Virus record (IMG/VR): IMGVR_UViG_3300048672_000430
Coordinates: 1-64,000 of that record
Source of the DNA: a virus
Strand: one strand, 5' to 3'
DNA: 64,000 nucleotides
The translations under genes were made by a program, and so were the position numbers. The notes under the pieces were generated by a model. That model made no database searches, was not told the origin of the DNA, and worked only from the letters and a program-made list of their open reading frames with translations. Below are positions 17,895 to 30,665 of this stretch, piece after piece (positions within the stretch are counted from its first letter, which is position 1; every line of letters starts with the position of its first letter).

Positions 17895-18635
17895 TTATTT
17901 TAAATTACTTAAAAATTCTTTTACATAAGACAAAGGAACAGCATGACCAGAGTTTTCGATTTGTGGATTTCCTGCAAAAATAACAGCAACAATATTACCA
18001 TATTTATTTACAACAGGTGATCCTGAATTTCCAGGGTAAGTTGGAGAGCTGATTTGAATTGTGTTTCTAGTTACAACACATACTTCCATTGCACCAAAAA
18101 ATGTTTGAATAGTTTGAATTGAACCTTCTGAACAAGAACCATCTTCATTTGTTTCAGCAGCTAATTGAATCTCATTATCATCAAAATATTCGCCTTTAGC
18201 AACGTTTAAAGCTTCACCTCTAGGATGTCCAAGTGTATATAGTTCTTCACCAATCTTAGGGTTTGAACCAATCTTTAAACCTTTATGATCTGGCAATGCT
18301 TCTAGAGCACAAAGATCGTGGTCTTTAGAAATTTTAATTATTTTACGTTCCACTAATAGTTTTGTGTCTTCAGCCTTTACTAAAAGAGGGCCTTTCATTT
18401 GACAGATATGTTTGTTTGTTAAGATAACAACAGAACCATCGGCTAATTCAACATGGGAACCAGAACCAGATCCATCTTGTCCAAAAATTTGAACAGTGCT
18501 TTGCTCTGCTAGATGGCGAATATAAGCTCTATGAGCATGAGGAGCCTCAAAGGAAATATAACCCAAGCCAACGGCTAAGATAGCGATTTTTATTGTCTTT
18601 TTAATTGCATTTGTAATTTTAGATTTTAGACTCAC
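17895..18635 (-). CDS. Trypsin-like (S1/HtrA-type) serine protease with N-terminal membrane anchor
   Basis: 246 residues from a GTG start with GGAGTT upstream. Residues about 14-28 (IKIAILAVGLGYISF) form a signal anchor. The catalytic triad is visible: His in ILTNKHIC, Asp in SKDHDLCALEA and Ser in PTYPGNSGSPVV. Cysteines near the active site suggest export and disulfides. No PDZ domain is present. It lies between terminase and portal, where other phages keep a prohead protease, but a membrane-anchored chymotrypsin-fold enzyme is unusual there. It could process virion proteins or act in the periplasm on host proteins. Confidence 0.8.
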   Translation of the reverse strand: MSLKSKITNAIKKTIKIAILAVGLGYISFEAPHAHRAYIRHLAEQSTVQIFGQDGSGSGSHVELADGSVVILTNKHICQMKGPLLVKAEDTKLLVERKIIKISKDHDLCALEALPDHKGLKIGSNPKIGEELYTLGHPRGEALNVAKGEYFDDNEIQLAAETNEDGSCSEGSIQTIQTFFGAMEVCVVTRNTIQISSPTYPGNSGSPVVNKYGNIVAVIFAGNPQIENSGHAVPLSYVKEFLSNLK

Positions 18636-22652: not shown

Positions 22653-22853
22653 TTAGTGATTTCGATGAGGTGAGTAAAATAGGTGTGGTCGAGAATAGGT
22701 GTTTATATACTTGAATTAGGTGGTATCACGGATGAGCTAACAAAGCCTTTCGTCCCGTCGGAAAGCCCATAGGGGGTAGGTAGGTGGGGGGTGTTTGATA
22801 TGCCAAACTTTTGTATGATGTTGCGAACTTAAGATGGCACGGATCTTGCAGGG

Positions 22854-23008
22854 ATATGCAAGTATCATGCCGGCACGGTAATTGCTATATATGCAAGAAG
22901 TATGCCAAGTGCTAAGTGTCCAATATTGTAGGAGTTCTGGGGTAAGTGGTTGATATGTGATGAAATTATTTGGTATTGATGTTGCTATATATGCAAGGGG
23001 CATGCCGA
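22854..23008. repeat. Three iteron-like repeats ATATGCAAGnnnYATGCC
   Basis: Copies start at 22,854, 22,889 and 22,989. The first reads ATATGCAAGTATCATGCCGG. The second and third share a 16-nt upstream-extended core TTGCTATATATGCAAG and start exactly 100 bp apart. Each is about 20 bp with partial dyad character (GCA...TGC). Direct repeats of this size in a non-coding divide suggest binding sites for a replication or regulatory protein. Confidence 0.6.
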
Positions 23009-23392
23009 GGTTTACCCGGTTGAGGGCAATTTTTTGGCATCGATTTTGCAATTAGACCTGCATCATTATATGCCCCAAAACCAGGAATTTTATTTTTATC
23101 CTTATATACAACGAAAATCTGTCATGCCTGAAAAATTTTTTTAGCGTCTTAACTCTATGTTATCGTTGGTGAATTTCAGATTTTTTAAATTATTTTTGAA
23201 GATCGCTTGCAATTATTTTTTAGATCGGTTAAGATTGTTTCAAGGCAAGCAACTAAGCTTGTCGGTAACGAGAGGTTAGAACATGGTAGCGGTGGTTGTA
23301 GTGATTTTTGTTTCATACTTTTTATTAGAAGTTGTTGGAATATAAAAAAAAGCTATAGGTTCCCGTTGTGGATAGTTTTTCAATATGTACTT

Positions 23393-23426: not shown

Positions 23427-23681
23427 ATGATAAAAAGTAAAGAGCAGATGAAATTTGAAGCTATGAAAAGAAAACAAGTACTTGAGGCGAAAAGTAAAAA
23501 TAACGCCTTTAATAAGGCGGGGAATGTTAAGACAAGTTTTGGAAAATGTAATAAAGAGTATTTAATTAACATGGGATTTTATGTTAAAGGAGAAAGAAAT
23601 AAACCGAGTAAATCGGCATGGGTAGAAAAAAGATTAGATAAAAATATAATTGAAGTTGACTTAAGAAAAAAGTCATGCTAA
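23427..23681 (+). CDS. Small basic protein, first gene of the rightward block
   Basis: 84 residues, strongly basic and Lys-rich (MKRKQVLEAKSKNNAFNKAG), beginning after TAAAGGAATTG with good ribosome-site spacing. Its 3' end carries the promoter for the structured RNA that follows. Not recognised; composition suggests nucleic acid binding. Confidence 0.65.
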   Translation: MIKSKEQMKFEAMKRKQVLEAKSKNNAFNKAGNVKTSFGKCNKEYLINMGFYVKGERNKPSKSAWVEKRLDKNIIEVDLRKKSC

Positions 23682-23684
23682 TAT
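23656..23684 (+). promoter_or_regulatory. Sigma-70-type promoter for the structured RNA
   Basis: TTGACT, 17 bp, TAATAT, overlapping the end of the 84-residue gene. The predicted start is about 23,690-23,692, just where the densely folded RNA begins. Confidence 0.7.
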
Positions 23685-23689
23685 AAAGT

Positions 23690-24032
23690 AAGTAAAGCAA
23701 CTGAGATCGGTCACAAGTCCGACTGAAAAATGCTGAGTGATTATTTAAACAAAGTACCAAAATAGGTACTATACTCAAAGAACATGATTCGGGTAGACCC
23801 CAATCCTAGGGCTTTGAATGAAACACTCACGAACCACGGCGAAAAACGCTGAAAGCTTGACAATGCAAATTGTCTGCATCGTGTAAGAAAAATGCTTATG
23901 AACCACAAGTGATCGAAAAGTCGGTGGTTGCAAGTGAAGGCTACATCATGTAAATGATGAGAGATAACCATTAAGCATTGTTTTAAACATACAATGTCCT
24001 GTTGCAAGTCAGGCTGAGAAAATGTGAGCAAA
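23690..24032 (+). ncRNA. Large structured non-coding RNA, unknown class
   Basis: There is no gene on either strand, yet the stretch is full of compensable stems. AGTACC/GGTACT lies at 23,753-23,770 inside TGAGTG/CACTCA (23,734-23,829), with GATTCGGG/CCCCAATC alongside (one mismatch). GACAAT-GCAA-ATTGTC lies at 23,859-23,874 and CATCAT-GTAA-ATGATG at 23,944-23,959, both with GNRA tetraloops. AACCAC/GTGGTT is at 23,901-23,929 and CATTGT/ACAATG at 23,976-23,996. A CAAGT-containing hairpin motif followed by CTGA-AAAATG recurs near both ends (CACAAGTCCGACTGA and TGCAAGTCAGGCTGA). It has its own promoter. It may be an independent RNA of the large ornate phage type or the processed leader of the downstream operon. 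Confidence 0.75.
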
Positions 24033-24056
24033 ACAAAATATAAACCGAGGTGATTT

Positions 24057-24296
24057 ATGTATGAACAACATCGAATCGAATTGATTCGTTCAATACGTAT
24101 TTACTTATCTATGTATAAGGTATCTAAATTAGAGAATTATTTGGATTCTGCGGTCAGAGTAATGAAACAACTAGATGATCTAAATAAGGAAAATATAAAC
24201 GAATATAAAAACCTAGTGAATCTTCAAAATAAAAGAGATGAGCTAAATAATTTCTTAGATCAAACAAATAACACTGTATTTTTAAAAGCTTCTTAG
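24057..24296 (+). CDS. Small coiled-coil protein
   Basis: 79 residues, helical (SAVRVMKQLDDLNKENINEY, then LVNLQNKRDELNNFL). The start follows CGAGGTG. First gene after the structured RNA. Not recognised. Confidence 0.65.
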   Translation: MYEQHRIELIRSIRIYLSMYKVSKLENYLDSAVRVMKQLDDLNKENINEYKNLVNLQNKRDELNNFLDQTNNTVFLKAS

Positions 24297-25083: not shown

Positions 25084-25090
25084 GGTGAAA

Positions 25091-26545
25091 ATGAACTTAG
25101 AATCATTTACTGTTAAGGGTACAATAATTCAAACAAATAAAGACTTATATGGTGGTGGATATGGTGGCACATATATTTATAAGATCGTAAAGAGTGCCAA
25201 ATTAAATCCAGATAAAACATTCCTAACTAATCAACCAATTCTTGTAAACGAAGACAACAGGCGAATATATCCTTATCTAACAAATTCTAGATTATTAGAA
25301 TTAAATATTAAAGAAATCAAATGTGAAAAAACAATAAAAGAATTTAATAAAATTTTAGTTGACTCGAAAAGGAAAAATGCCTTTAAAAATCTAACCAACG
25401 GTATTGTAGAAACTTTAGGAAGCGACCCTGAAATTTTTGTGGTAGATGAAAACGATAAAGTAATTCCTTCTTATGAATTTTTAAATGGTAAAGATAATCC
25501 AAATTTAACAGGAACATACAAGGAATTTAAAATAAATGGTAATTGTGGTGCAAATGTAAATCAAAAAATGTTTTGGGACGGTTTCCAAGCTGAATTTAAT
25601 ACAGATGCTCAAAGTTGTTTAGCCTGGGTATGTGACTCGACTGTACTCGGTTTACAATCCGTTTTGAAAGAAGCAAAAAAGTATAATCCAAATGCAAGAT
25701 TAACAATTCAAACAACAGTAGACATTGATAAGAATGTTCTAGATAACGCTAAACCTGAACATGTAGAGTTCGGTTGTATGCCATCGTTTAACGTATATAA
25801 TATGTCAGGAATCAAGGCAGATGGTAGGTCGGTATCATTTAGATCAGCAGGTGGACATATTCACTTCGGTATGAGTGACTTAACTAAAACGAAAGCTAAA
25901 AGATATGTAAAGGCACTAGATAAGATTCTAGGTGTTGCATGTGTTTCATTGTTTAATACTTACGACGACCCTAGAAGACGTACTATGTACGGATTAGCAG
26001 GTGAATATAGATTACCTGCACACGGTTTAGAATATAGAACATTAAGTAATGCGTGGTTATCTCACCCGCTTATTATGAATCTAGTATTTGAAATGGCTAG
26101 AAAGGTAATAGGTGCAGAAGAGGACGAACAAATGCAATTCTGGGATTCAACAGAAGAAGAAACTATTAGATGTATCAATACATGTGATGTTGATTTAGCT
26201 AGGGAGATTTTAGCAAGAAATAAAACAAACCTGATTAATCTCTTAAAATCTATAAGTTCTATAAGTTATAATGAAAATGCTGAATATATCTATAAAATTT
26301 TAATGTTAGGTATGCAATCGATCATTGAAAATCCTGATGATATATCGGGTAATTGGTCATTCGAAAATCTTTATAAAGGTCATTGTGATGCAGACGGTAT
26401 GCAACTTATTACAATAGATAATATACCAAATTATAGATTATTAAAAGATGAGAAGGTTACTGCGATATATGAACAACTAGCATTTAATATTAAGCAATTA
26501 GATAATGATGAGGAAACTATGACATTGAAAGAAGTTATGGGGTAG
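25091..26545 (+). CDS. Phage amidoligase, COOH-NH2 ligase type 2
   Basis: 484 residues from the ATG at 25091, preferred over GTG at 25085 because GAGGTG gives correct spacing. Motifs of the glutamine-synthetase-like amidoligase fold are GSDPEIFV at residues 110-117 (the metal-binding Glu of the first strand), FWDGFQAEFN, SAGGHIHFG around 252-260 (the second metal/ATP motif) and HGLEYRTLSNAWLSHP. The family is known from phages such as phiEco32 and is predicted to join carboxyl and amino groups using ATP. It shares an operon with a second amidoligase, a glutamine amidotransferase and an ATP-grasp enzyme. Substrate unknown; a peptide tag, cell-surface or nucleotide modification are all possible. 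Confidence 0.85.
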   Translation: MNLESFTVKGTIIQTNKDLYGGGYGGTYIYKIVKSAKLNPDKTFLTNQPILVNEDNRRIYPYLTNSRLLELNIKEIKCEKTIKEFNKILVDSKRKNAFKNLTNGIVETLGSDPEIFVVDENDKVIPSYEFLNGKDNPNLTGTYKEFKINGNCGANVNQKMFWDGFQAEFNTDAQSCLAWVCDSTVLGLQSVLKEAKKYNPNARLTIQTTVDIDKNVLDNAKPEHVEFGCMPSFNVYNMSGIKADGRSVSFRSAGGHIHFGMSDLTKTKAKRYVKALDKILGVACVSLFNTYDDPRRRTMYGLAGEYRLPAHGLEYRTLSNAWLSHPLIMNLVFEMARKVIGAEEDEQMQFWDSTEEETIRCINTCDVDLAREILARNKTNLINLLKSISSISYNENAEYIYKILMLGMQSIIENPDDISGNWSFENLYKGHCDADGMQLITIDNIPNYRLLKDEKVTAIYEQLAFNIKQLDNDEETMTLKEVMG

Positions 26546-27861: not shown

Positions 27862-28026
27862 ATGATAATAATACAATGCGATAACGATTTATGTGAAGCC
27901 GGAAATGAATGGTCTGAACATATTAATTATCGATTTAGTAATGATTATATAGATTACGATGATTTCTTAAATAATGTTTCAAATGAAGAAGAATATAGAA
28001 TAATATGGGAGGATACAAATGATTAA
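27862..28026 (+). CDS. Hypothetical 54-residue acidic protein
   Basis: Starts after AGGGGAACATC and overlaps the second amidoligase gene by 8 nt. Begins MIIIQCDNDLCEAGNEWSEH; rich in Asp, Glu, Tyr and Asn. The I-x-Q start resembles the microprotein family further downstream. Confidence 0.55.
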   Translation: MIIIQCDNDLCEAGNEWSEHINYRFSNDYIDYDDFLNNVSNEEEYRIIWEDTND

Positions 28027-29419
28027 TGTTGGATCAATAATAAAAATTAATGATGAACTTTGTCCAGAAAATGAACGCTCTAATAAAAGATTTCAATTCG
28101 GTGCTTTAAATTATATCGCAATTATGTTGGATTGGGAGTTTGAGGTAGTACGAGAATTTAAAGATGAGTTTCATGGTGACATGGTAGAATGTAAAATTAC
28201 CAATAGTGATAATATCAAGTCAAACATTGTTCTTAGAACACAAGATACAGTGTTAGCTAAGTCAAATAAATTCAATTTAACTTATGAGATTATCGGTAAA
28301 ACAGGAAGGTTTGATGCTGAGATAAGAGAACTCAAGAGAGAAGAAAATGATCTACTCTTAGTTCGTGCGGAAGAAAAAAGAAAAGGCACACCGATCACTG
28401 ATAAAACACTTATTCAAAATTGGTCAGAAGTTAAATCAGTTAGAAATAAGATCAAGCGTTATCAAGAAAATACTGATAAAGTTTTTGTTGTCAAACATTC
28501 GTCTGGTACTTACGAGATTGATTGTGCTGAGGAACAAATTCCAACAAAGCTTAGATCTTTAATTAGAAGTATGCGTGCTGATAGACGCAAAGTTTACCCT
28601 GTCACAAAAGAAATTGGTGGCGGTATGACATTAGAGAAATTAGGTAATGTCATGGTTAAACCTGGTAAGTTCCTGGAATTAAATGAGAAGTATGCTTTGA
28701 ATATTATTAAGGCACATAAGAAACCTACAACAAACGATAACTATGTTGGTATTGAAATTGAGATGTTATCACCTAAAAGTATTGAAGAAATGAATAAAGA
28801 GTTTATTAAGTCAAGATTACATAAGTATGTGAATGTTGGTACAGATGGTTCAATTAGAAGTGACATTAGTGGTGTTCATGCTATGGAATTGAGGGTATGT
28901 TTACCTGAAAACTTATTAGCTACTCATTTAAAAATGATTACAGAAGTATTACGTAAAACAGACTCTTATGCAAATCGTTCATGTGGTATGCACGTTCACG
29001 TTGATATGAGAAATCGTGACCCTGAGCTATGTTACAGAAACTTCTTTAAAGTTCAAAATATTATGCTACAAGCTCAACCATTAACTAGACGTACAAACCA
29101 ATACTGCAAACCTAGTACGATAGCTAGCAAAAAATTAAAAGACTTCTCAAGTAATGGTGATGATAACGTGAGACGACAAGCAATTAATACTGACTCGTAT
29201 CATAAAAACGATATGAAGACTATTGAGATCAGAGTACACGAAGGTGCTACTAAGTTCAAAGATATATTTAATTGGGTAAATTTCTTAGTTGCGACCGCTT
29301 CCCTTAAAAAAGATTTGGACGCACCTATTAATACTATTAAAGAATTAAGATCTGCTAATTTCGTAAATGAATTAGTAATTAATCATTTAAATGAACGTAT
29401 TGAAGAGTATTCGGCTTAA
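28019..29419 (+). CDS. Second amidoligase (Amidoligase_2 type)
   Basis: 466 residues with GGGAGGA upstream. The N-terminal 240 residues are an unrecognised extension that includes a helical segment (DAEIREELKREEND-like). The amidoligase core starts with YVGIEIEM (244-249), the metal-binding Glu strand. It continues with AMELRVCLPE and the hallmark SCGMHVHVDMR (about 321-331), and ends with TIEIRVHEG near 400-408. It shares a fold but little sequence with the amidoligase at 25,091, so they probably act at different steps. It is followed immediately by the glutamine amidotransferase. Confidence 0.85.
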   Translation: MINVGSIIKINDELCPENERSNKRFQFGALNYIAIMLDWEFEVVREFKDEFHGDMVECKITNSDNIKSNIVLRTQDTVLAKSNKFNLTYEIIGKTGRFDAEIRELKREENDLLLVRAEEKRKGTPITDKTLIQNWSEVKSVRNKIKRYQENTDKVFVVKHSSGTYEIDCAEEQIPTKLRSLIRSMRADRRKVYPVTKEIGGGMTLEKLGNVMVKPGKFLELNEKYALNIIKAHKKPTTNDNYVGIEIEMLSPKSIEEMNKEFIKSRLHKYVNVGTDGSIRSDISGVHAMELRVCLPENLLATHLKMITEVLRKTDSYANRSCGMHVHVDMRNRDPELCYRNFFKVQNIMLQAQPLTRRTNQYCKPSTIASKKLKDFSSNGDDNVRRQAINTDSYHKNDMKTIEIRVHEGATKFKDIFNWVNFLVATASLKKDLDAPINTIKELRSANFVNELVINHLNERIEEYSA

Positions 29420-29447: not shown

Positions 29448-30665
29448 ATGTGTAAAGTTATGGTAATGACCGGGATAGAAAATAATGATCTAGCCCTGAG
29501 ATTTATGAAAGCAGTAGCACCCAACATGTCAGTAGGTAATACCGACGGCATTGGGTACTCCGCAGTAAATTCTAAGAATCAACTGTTCATGGAAAAATGG
29601 CACGTTAATAATAAGTTCTTAAATACGAACGATGTTGTAGACGCTAAGACTATTGAGGAATTAAAACCTTATGAGAATAGGATAGGTAAACTCCAATTAA
29701 ATTACACAAGTTATGGTGATGTAACAAGAGACGATCTTAGATCAGTGACTATGCACACCAGGTACGCAACATGTGGAAAAACATTTGAGAATACTCACCC
29801 ATTTATTGAAAATGATATATCCCTTATTCATAATGGTGTTATTCAAAATTCTTTTACATTAGCATTAAATAAAAATTCAACTTGTGACTCCGAAAACGCT
29901 TTACAATTATACAATAACTTACAAGTTAATTTGAGTAAGAAAAGTACAGACTATCAAAGTTTCCTAGATAAGTTAAAGGGTTATTGGGCATTTGCTTTTC
30001 TTGCAAAAGATTCTGAAGGTACATATCAACTAGATGTTGTTCGTGAGGGTGCACCATTATACTTTGCAAAGATTGAAGAAATCGGAGTTAATTGTGTTGT
30101 GTTTGCAACAACAAAAGAAATCATCGAGATAGGTTGTAAAGAATTAGAGTTACCAGTTAGATCACAGATCTATCTACTAACTGAGTCTAACTATCACAGA
30201 TTTAACGCATTAACAGGCGAGTTAATACTTAATAAACAACTCGAAGATTCTTTATTAAATGCTTCATCGTATAGCTATTCAAAAGTATTTAAATCAAATA
30301 AGACAAAGAAAAAAGAACCTTATCAACCACTAAATAATAACAACATAGATGAATACTATGACTACTACAATAGTCAAGAAAATTACAAGGATCTTACATC
30401 AGTAACCGATGAGTTCTTATTAGATTCGTTCTATGATATTAATGAGCCTTTAGTTGATAGACTTGATTCTTATGATAAAATGTTCGACACTGAGTATTTA
30501 TCTAACTTTGAAGATCTAGCTATTAAAATCCGTGACTTCATAACAAAACAAGAATATAAAGAAGTTATTAGTTTTGCCGAAATTATCTTAATGTTAGACG
30601 CTTATATTGCAAGTGAAAATATATCAGACCTTTATAAAGTATTTAGAAATAAACGTAGGGCTTAA
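29448..30665 (+). CDS. Class II (Ntn-type) glutamine amidotransferase
   Basis: 405 residues. The second residue is Cys (MCKVMVM), the N-terminal nucleophile after Met removal. HTRYATCGKTFENTHPF and LIHNGVIQNSFTL are the glutamine-binding motifs of the GATase II family. The N-terminal domain (about 270 residues) hydrolyses glutamine to release ammonia. The last 130 residues are a Tyr/Asp-rich tail (NNNNIDEYYDYYNSQENYKD) and a helical region, without the synthetase or SIS domain of GlmS, PurF or AsnB. The ammonia is presumably used by a partner, most likely the ATP-grasp or amidoligase enzymes of the operon. Confidence 0.85.
   Translation: MCKVMVMTGIENNDLALRFMKAVAPNMSVGNTDGIGYSAVNSKNQLFMEKWHVNNKFLNTNDVVDAKTIEELKPYENRIGKLQLNYTSYGDVTRDDLRSVTMHTRYATCGKTFENTHPFIENDISLIHNGVIQNSFTLALNKNSTCDSENALQLYNNLQVNLSKKSTDYQSFLDKLKGYWAFAFLAKDSEGTYQLDVVREGAPLYFAKIEEIGVNCVVFATTKEIIEIGCKELELPVRSQIYLLTESNYHRFNALTGELILNKQLEDSLLNASSYSYSKVFKSNKTKKKEPYQPLNNNNIDEYYDYYNSQENYKDLTSVTDEFLLDSFYDINEPLVDRLDSYDKMFDTEYLSNFEDLAIKIRDFITKQEYKEVISFAEIILMLDAYIASENISDLYKVFRNKRRA

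Follow-up and report, generated by a model that had tools for sequence, protein, structure and literature searches.

Clustered hammerhead ribozymes flank genes in prophages and are thought to process the transcript (Perreault et al. 2011, PMC3088659), and theta ribozymes trim phage tRNAs (PMC10879173). Twister ribozymes are built on the essential stems P1, P2 and P4, to which P0, P3 and P5 are optional additions, and they cleave at a conserved U-A step before P2 (PMC5408937). In bacteria, hammerheads and twisters have long been seen close to one another and to phage genes; they are enriched near the same genes, for a reason given as unknown (PMC10085705, 2023). The GOLLD and ROOL RNAs (PMC12286853) lie frequently, not obligatorily, near tRNA islands. 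In retrozymes and viroid-like circular RNAs, two ribozymes excise an RNA that is a few hundred bases long (PMC7761336, PMC4918200).

The locus that we describe here has likenesses to these systems and differs from them. As with the prophage hammerheads, several self-cleaving ribozymes lie in one phage transcript; whereas those enclose gene units, an arrangement also present in two relatives reported below (L046 and L108), here a structured RNA is flanked, and the ribozyme class varies between phages at one locus. Theta is likewise phage-encoded and self-cleaving and frees an RNA with a defined end, but it is one HDV-like ribozyme on the 3' side of a tRNA, and here two ribozymes of other classes flank the RNA. 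GOLLD and ROOL likewise come from phages, are large and folded and have no known function; compared with them, the present RNA is without a sequence or structure match, is smaller, lies in no tRNA island and has ends that are predicted to be set by ribozymes. Retrozymes and viroid-like RNAs share the excision by two ribozymes of an RNA of this size, but they carry copies of one ribozyme and are eukaryotic retroelements or replicating circles; here the classes are mixed, the setting is a phage operon, and there is no sign of replication. The open-access literature that we searched contains no description of a conserved payload RNA bracketed by ribozymes whose class can change. Our reading, to which we give a probability of about three in four, is that the locus encodes a self-excising structured non-coding RNA that would act in trans, at the head of the rightward operon of a tailed phage.

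The window, by which we mean the whole 64-kb stretch of DNA that was analyzed, was taken from an 82,107-base virus record, in which the RNA cassette is present as a single copy. The locus lies at the start of an operon that is read rightward. The packaging and structural genes (terminase, portal) face it across a gene-free gap of ~0.8 kb and are read leftward. The first gene of the operon encodes an 84-aa protein (Table 1) that matches nothing in PHROG or Pfam; its homologues, identified by alignment, stand in synteny directly 5' of the ribozyme-flanked RNA in five relatives (L025, L030, L031, L032 and L106). After predicted cleavage, the downstream mRNA would begin with a 79-aa ORF, the equivalent position of which is occupied by a 74-aa ORF in L030 and L106. 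Further along the operon, 3' of the RNA, lie genes for a COOH.NH2-ligase-like protein (25085-26545, plus strand) and, by inspection, for a second amidoligase-like protein (28019-29419, plus strand) and a class-II glutamine amidotransferase-like protein (29448-30665, plus strand). Between the terminase and portal genes there is a trypsin-like serine protease that is probably membrane-anchored (17895-18635, minus strand; PHROG 9683).

Table 1. Coordinates of the features discussed, in the window unless a relative is named.
Feature	Position	Strand	Basis
Sigma-54-type (-24/-12) promoter-like sites	22835-22850, 22871-22886, 22971-22986, 23035-23050	+	pattern match
84-aa ORF opening the rightward operon, directly 5' of the RNA	23427-23681	+	
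Hairpin UGACUU-AAGAAAA-AAGUCA, just 5' of ribozyme 1	23657-23675	+	read from sequence
Twister-P1 copy 1	23686-23746	+	Rfam RF03160 match, covariation, model
Copy 1 stem P1	23686-23691/23741-23746		
Copy 1 stem P2	23696-23699/23731-23734		
Copy 1 stem P4	23707-23710/23719-23722		
Copy 1 pseudoknot T1	23712-23714/23737-23739		
Copy 1 pseudoknot T2	23700-23701/23717-23718		
Predicted cleavage site 1, U^A	23693-23694	+	conserved U-A step before P2
291-nt RNA, predicted to be self-excised	23694-23984	+	folding, no Rfam match, relatives
Alternative helix TGAGTG/CACTCA	23734-23739/23824-23829	+	minimum-energy fold
H1-like hairpin AGUACC-AAAAUA-GGUACU, A-rich AAAUA-type loop	23753-23770	+	
Hairpin GACAAT-GCAA-ATTGTC, GNRA loop	23859-23874	+	read from sequence, fold
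Hairpin CATCAT-GTAA-ATGATG, GNRA loop, near payload 3' end	23944-23959	+	read from sequence, fold
Twister-P1 copy 2	23977-24037	+	model R1 match, covariation
Copy 2 stem P1 (UUGUUU/AAACAA)	23978-23983/24031-24036		
Copy 2 stem P2	23987-23990/24022-24025		
Copy 2 stem P4	23998-24001/24010-24013		
Copy 2 pseudoknot T1	24003-24005/24028-24030		
Copy 2 pseudoknot T2	23991-23992/24008-24009		
Predicted cleavage site 2, U^A	23984-23985	+	conserved U-A step before P2
79-aa ORF that would open the downstream mRNA once cleaved	24057-24296	+	
Type-III hammerhead, SD-like sequence inside stem III, L025	6217-6285	-	
Type-III hammerhead, SD-like sequence inside stem III, L030	5136-5204	-	
Type-III hammerhead, SD-like sequence inside stem III, L031	1301-1368	-	
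Type-III hammerhead, SD-like sequence inside stem III, L106	3152-3214	+	

Comparison with Rfam, a descriptor and a purpose-built model together provide the identity of the two ends. At the gathering threshold nothing is matched anywhere in the 64 kb. At the permissive threshold copy 1 matches twister-P1 (RF03160) over 23689-23743 with 38.2 bits and an E value of 2.1e-6, the next best match being at E 4.4; this score does not reach the gathering score of the family, 67.2 bits, which is a curation threshold and not a structural feature of the twister class. Copy 2 is not reported in the permissive search. A descriptor of the twister architecture recovers copy 1 and, with it, a second copy at 23974-24040, and a model (R1) built from copy 1 and the twisters of L030 and L106, without copy 2, finds copy 2 with 39.6 bits (E 8.4e-9), so that this copy is not an artefact of the descriptor. 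Both window copies present the hallmarks of twister-P1: stems P1, P2 and P4, pseudoknots T1 and T2, the UA^A cleavage step, the loop G-U-NNN-AAG-NC, the AAA joint and GAG-NN. They differ from the family by a short L2 loop in place of the optional P3, by falling below the gathering score, and in being a matched pair that encloses a payload RNA.

The two copies align without gaps, over 61 columns, with the twisters of L030 and L106. For these four sequences, with the pseudoknots placed according to crystal structures (PMC5408937), 93.8% of the cells are paired, and compensatory changes are seen in 13 of the 20 pairs (0 of 500 shuffles), among them pairs from both pseudoknots. Pairing is complete in P2 and P4 and reaches 82% in P1, with compensatory changes in the stems. 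All cells of T1 and T2 are paired: for T1, copy 1 has CAC/GUG and copy 2 has UGC/GCA, and T2 is AC/GU in three of the twisters and GC/GC in that of L106. The core of UAA, G-U-NNN-AAG-N-C, AAA and GAG is invariant in the four. By architecture and covariation, both ends of the window's cassette are twister-P1 ribozymes for which self-cleavage is predicted. The limits of the cassette are accordingly corrected to 23686-24037. The sequence-only reading had noted a motif with CAAGT, CTGA and AAAATG repeated near both ends; the repeat is real, and what had been missed is its identity as the cores of the two twisters.

Relatives of this phage, reached through searches with the terminase and the operon proteins, have at the same locus a structured non-coding stretch between ribozymes, and the class of these ribozymes varies. 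A twister at the 5' end is combined with a type-III hammerhead (RF00008) at the 3' end in L030 and L106; a type-II hammerhead (RF02276) at the 5' end with a type-III hammerhead at the 3' end in L025, L031 and L032; and type-II hammerheads stand at both ends in L040, L045 (with L044 and L056) and L049. The hammerheads, absent from the window, thus occupy the positions of its twisters. Predicted cuts in the relatives are 262-474 nt apart. Descriptors find 38 ribozymes in 1.84 Mb of relatives, compared with 3, 0, 0, 0 and 0 in shuffled copies, and none on the opposite strand. According to descriptor and Rfam, the hammerhead flanks have the CUGANGA and GAAA core, three stems and the UH^ site in the right circular order, and in those of type III 13 of 16 pairs carry compensatory changes. 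Type-II hammerheads of L032, L040 and L046 score above the Rfam gathering threshold; the remaining twisters and most hammerheads fall below it.

The survey has its margins. In L024 the 3' ribozyme alone is recognized, and several further relatives have no ribozyme in the stretch examined, for many of them because the contig stops earlier; the sequence of the closest terminase relative (L019, 85%) also stops short of the locus. Relatives of the first amidoligase (L002-L010) are without a twister, searches with the class-II glutamine amidotransferase and the second amidoligase of the operon gave no relatives, and a fixed twister pattern run against all viral contigs returned only chance matches in coding sequence. 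In L102 (5269-5370, plus strand) the 5' end of the same RNA is marked by a type-II hammerhead whose stem III carries a large insertion, and the contig stops inside the payload. The type-II pair of L046 and L108 brackets a coding gene and not an RNA, so ribozyme pairs are not reserved for non-coding RNA in these phages; such a pair would free a single-gene mRNA. The gene that they enclose (L046 2195-2637, minus strand; L108 3905-4372, plus strand) is small and conserved and belongs to a YGLQRFPV family. Within L025, L031 and L032, the type-II and type-III hammerheads of one phage have their stem I sequence in common (GUAAG, UAGGG and GUAU), which suggests duplication or concerted change. In L025, L030, L031 and L106, stem III of the type-III hammerhead contains the SD-like sequence of the next gene, and self-cleavage could there switch on translation.

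As to the host, the nearest terminases outside IMG/VR are those of a Bdellovibrionales MAG (33% identity) and of a phage of Silvanigrella aquatica (28% identity to the terminase of L025), a weak hint, from protein similarity, to a host in the Bdellovibrionota. There is no ribozyme in the stretch 5' of the terminase in the MAG, and the locus-specific proteins have no match in the bacterial genomes.

Between the ribozymes lies the payload. Its plus strand holds no credible gene, as the sequence-only reading had stated; the sole long frame, a 96-aa ORF with a TTG start on the minus strand, has no relative in any locus retrieved and was rejected as a gene. Dense folding had also been claimed and is borne out, with a z score of -2.67 over the 343-nt span first singled out and of -3.64 for the 291 nt from cut to cut (0 of 60 shuffles). 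Payloads of nine relatives have z scores of -1.9 to -4.6, far beyond the shuffles in most. The stems and the two GNRA hairpins described from the letters are real. The payload finds no Rfam family at either the gathering or the permissive threshold, nor have close DNA relatives of the RNA been found in phage or plasmid records. The proposal of a structured non-coding phage RNA outside ROOL, GOLLD and any Rfam family at the gathering threshold holds up, and that of a new class or a divergent member of an old one divides: the payload matches no class, and the flanks match a known one, twister-P1. The payload family itself is absent from Rfam.

An H1-type hairpin is present in seven of ten payloads, that of the window included, for which the chance probability is 0.0075. 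In the five payloads with identical H1 loops, all 25 cells of the stem are paired, and two of its positions show three pair types (0 of 2000 shuffles). A second hairpin, H3, lies near the payload 3' end in L025, L030, L031, L032 and L106 and consists of a stem, a GA/AA internal loop, three pairs and a GGGA loop; 49 of its 55 cells are paired (0 of 2000 shuffles). H3 is not recognizable in the window payload, which has only the H1-like hairpin in common with the payloads of the relatives. In L045, L040 and L049 the entire cassette is kept at 87-91% identity, with seven compensated pairs, and the cassette shared by L045 and L040 is an island, the adjoining stretches of L045 being without a match in L040. 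The covarying base pairs in homologues on which the earlier proposal had been made to depend are present in the twisters, the hammerheads, H1, H3 and this last cassette. A different history is seen in L030 (5190-5664, minus strand) and L106 (2841-3163, plus strand), whose flanks share 94% identity across 5.1 kb; their payloads can be aligned only at the 5' twister end and over a short 3' part, and the interior of the cassette looks as if it had been swapped. Judged by these comparisons, the payload is a structured RNA that some lineages have conserved and others have replaced.

The minimum-energy fold also contains the TGAGTG/CACTCA helix, which had been described as enclosing; its two strands are real. 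This helix excludes an active ribozyme 1, because it occupies nucleotides of the ribozyme core; formed after cleavage, it might lock the product. A similar pairing can be drawn by eye in L106.

The promoter proposed from the sequence alone, of sigma-70 type and belonging to the RNA itself, is not supported. TTGACT-17-TAATAT is present at 23656-23684, but sigma-70-like sites occur at chance level (13 found, 13.3 expected), TTGACT falls in the hairpin just 5' of ribozyme 1, and a start at ~23691 would lie inside ribozyme 1 and omit the 5' strand of its P1. The upstream gene of L025 lies just 14 bases from the ribozyme, which makes co-transcription with that gene more natural. Sites of sigma-54 type are in excess: the pattern TGGCAYNNNNNTTGCW, with at most one mismatch, has 10 matches in the 64 kb with 2.6 expected (no count of 10 in 100 shuffles), and seven of the ten, four on the plus and three on the minus strand, fall within 216 bases (22835-23050) of the divergent intergenic region. 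Similar clusters lie 5' of the locus in L024, L030, L046 and L106, one or two sites in L032, L061, L075 and L108, and none near the locus in L025 and L031. A phage-encoded sigma-54 factor was sought and not found, and the sigma-54 activator domain gave two sub-threshold matches only, in the records of L030 and L106; we infer that sigma-54 of the host is used.

A mechanism can be proposed from these observations. A polycistronic transcript, most likely from the sigma-54-type promoters several hundred bases upstream, would span, in order, the 84-aa gene, the payload between its two twisters, and the gene that follows. The twisters would cut it co-transcriptionally at U^A, after 23693 and 23984, to give an upstream mRNA, a free RNA of 291 nt and a downstream mRNA. 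The hairpin just 5' of ribozyme 1, with counterparts seen by eye in the equivalent position of L030 and L106, would form the 3' end of the upstream mRNA once this is cleaved. The freed RNA would bear a 5'-OH and a 2',3'-cyclic phosphate, and we infer both its cleavage in vivo and its action in trans. Ribozyme architecture, covariation, synteny, class swapping and conserved payload structure are evident at the level of sequence. As the relatives use a twister or a type-II hammerhead at the 5' end and a twister, a type-II or a type-III hammerhead at the 3' end, selection would act on release with exact ends and not on a given ribozyme class.

The same ribozymes could merely split a long mRNA into gene-sized pieces with 5'-OH ends, for maturation, stability or exposure of the ribosome-binding site, and the payload would then be a discarded spacer. 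Hammerheads do flank coding genes in L046, L108 and prophages (PMC3088659), cleavage could free the SD-like sequences held in stem III, and hairpins just 5' of several cut sites would shield the 3' ends of upstream mRNAs. We nonetheless regard a discarded spacer as unlikely: the payload has compensatory changes of its own and folds better than its shuffles, and the cassette of L045, L040 and L049 is kept as an island amid diverging neighbors, where a spacer need not persist. An identity as a ROOL or GOLLD RNA, new or divergent, has a likeness to build on, since this is a large folded phage RNA, and GOLLD joins a conserved 3' region to a variable 5' region (PMC12286853), a faint resemblance to the payloads. 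There is no Rfam match, however, at the gathering threshold for the window or at the permissive threshold for the window and relatives; the RNA is far below the 800 nt of GOLLD, there is no tRNA in the window, and flanking ribozymes are no part of those classes as the available account describes them, so that we give this identity next to no credence. Paired ribozymes around a few hundred bases, and an interior that differs in one pair of close relatives, would also suit a viroid-like, satellite or other mobile RNA element inserted by chance in phage DNA. Such an insertion is highly improbable given the same operon position in many phages, the single copy in the record, the lack of any ribozyme on the opposite strand and the lack of a match in plasmids or other phage records.

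Circularization is an extension of self-excision and not its opposite: the excised RNA would be closed by host RtcB, or by the reversed ribozyme reaction, and work as a circular RNA, an outcome that we consider possible and hold only tentatively. The ends left by paired ribozymes are exactly those that RtcB joins, and in the engineered Tornado system paired ribozymes yield circular RNA. RtcB is common in bacteria, being present in nine of 14 control genomes. The 3' end of the window RNA, UUGUUU(U), has a potential pairing partner in AAACAA at 23747-23752, adjoining ribozyme 1. DNA-encoded retroelements with paired ribozymes yield circRNAs (PMC7761336, PMC4918200), but when circles were looked for among the products of tandem bacterial hammerheads, none turned up (PMC3088659). 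Neither this phage (G000) nor 13 other phage records contain an RNA_ligase or RtcB gene (PF09414, PF01139), although a phage-encoded ligase is not obligatory, as host RtcB may serve. In the mixed-class phages the product keeps no complete ribozyme, which makes self-ligation unlikely there.

The fast replacement of the payload in near-identical phages suggests a possible role in conflict with host defenses or other mobile elements. Taken at its fullest, and at odds that we put well short of even, the locus would represent an undescribed phage RNA class with paired interchangeable ribozymes, sigma-54 arrays and a fast-replaced payload that is probably circularized by the host and acts in trans against host or competitor. 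If true, such a class would explain in part the clustering of hammerheads and twisters in phage genomes. One locus followed across relatives shows ribozyme classes replacing each other at both ends of a structured RNA, and this view of ribozymes as interchangeable scissors comes with specified predicted cut sites, payload limits and a natural swap (L030 compared with L106). If the payload is functional, it would be a new family of phage regulatory or counter-defense RNA. That the arrangement is kept while ribozyme and RNA are swapped suggests that RNAs set free by self-excision are of importance to these viruses.
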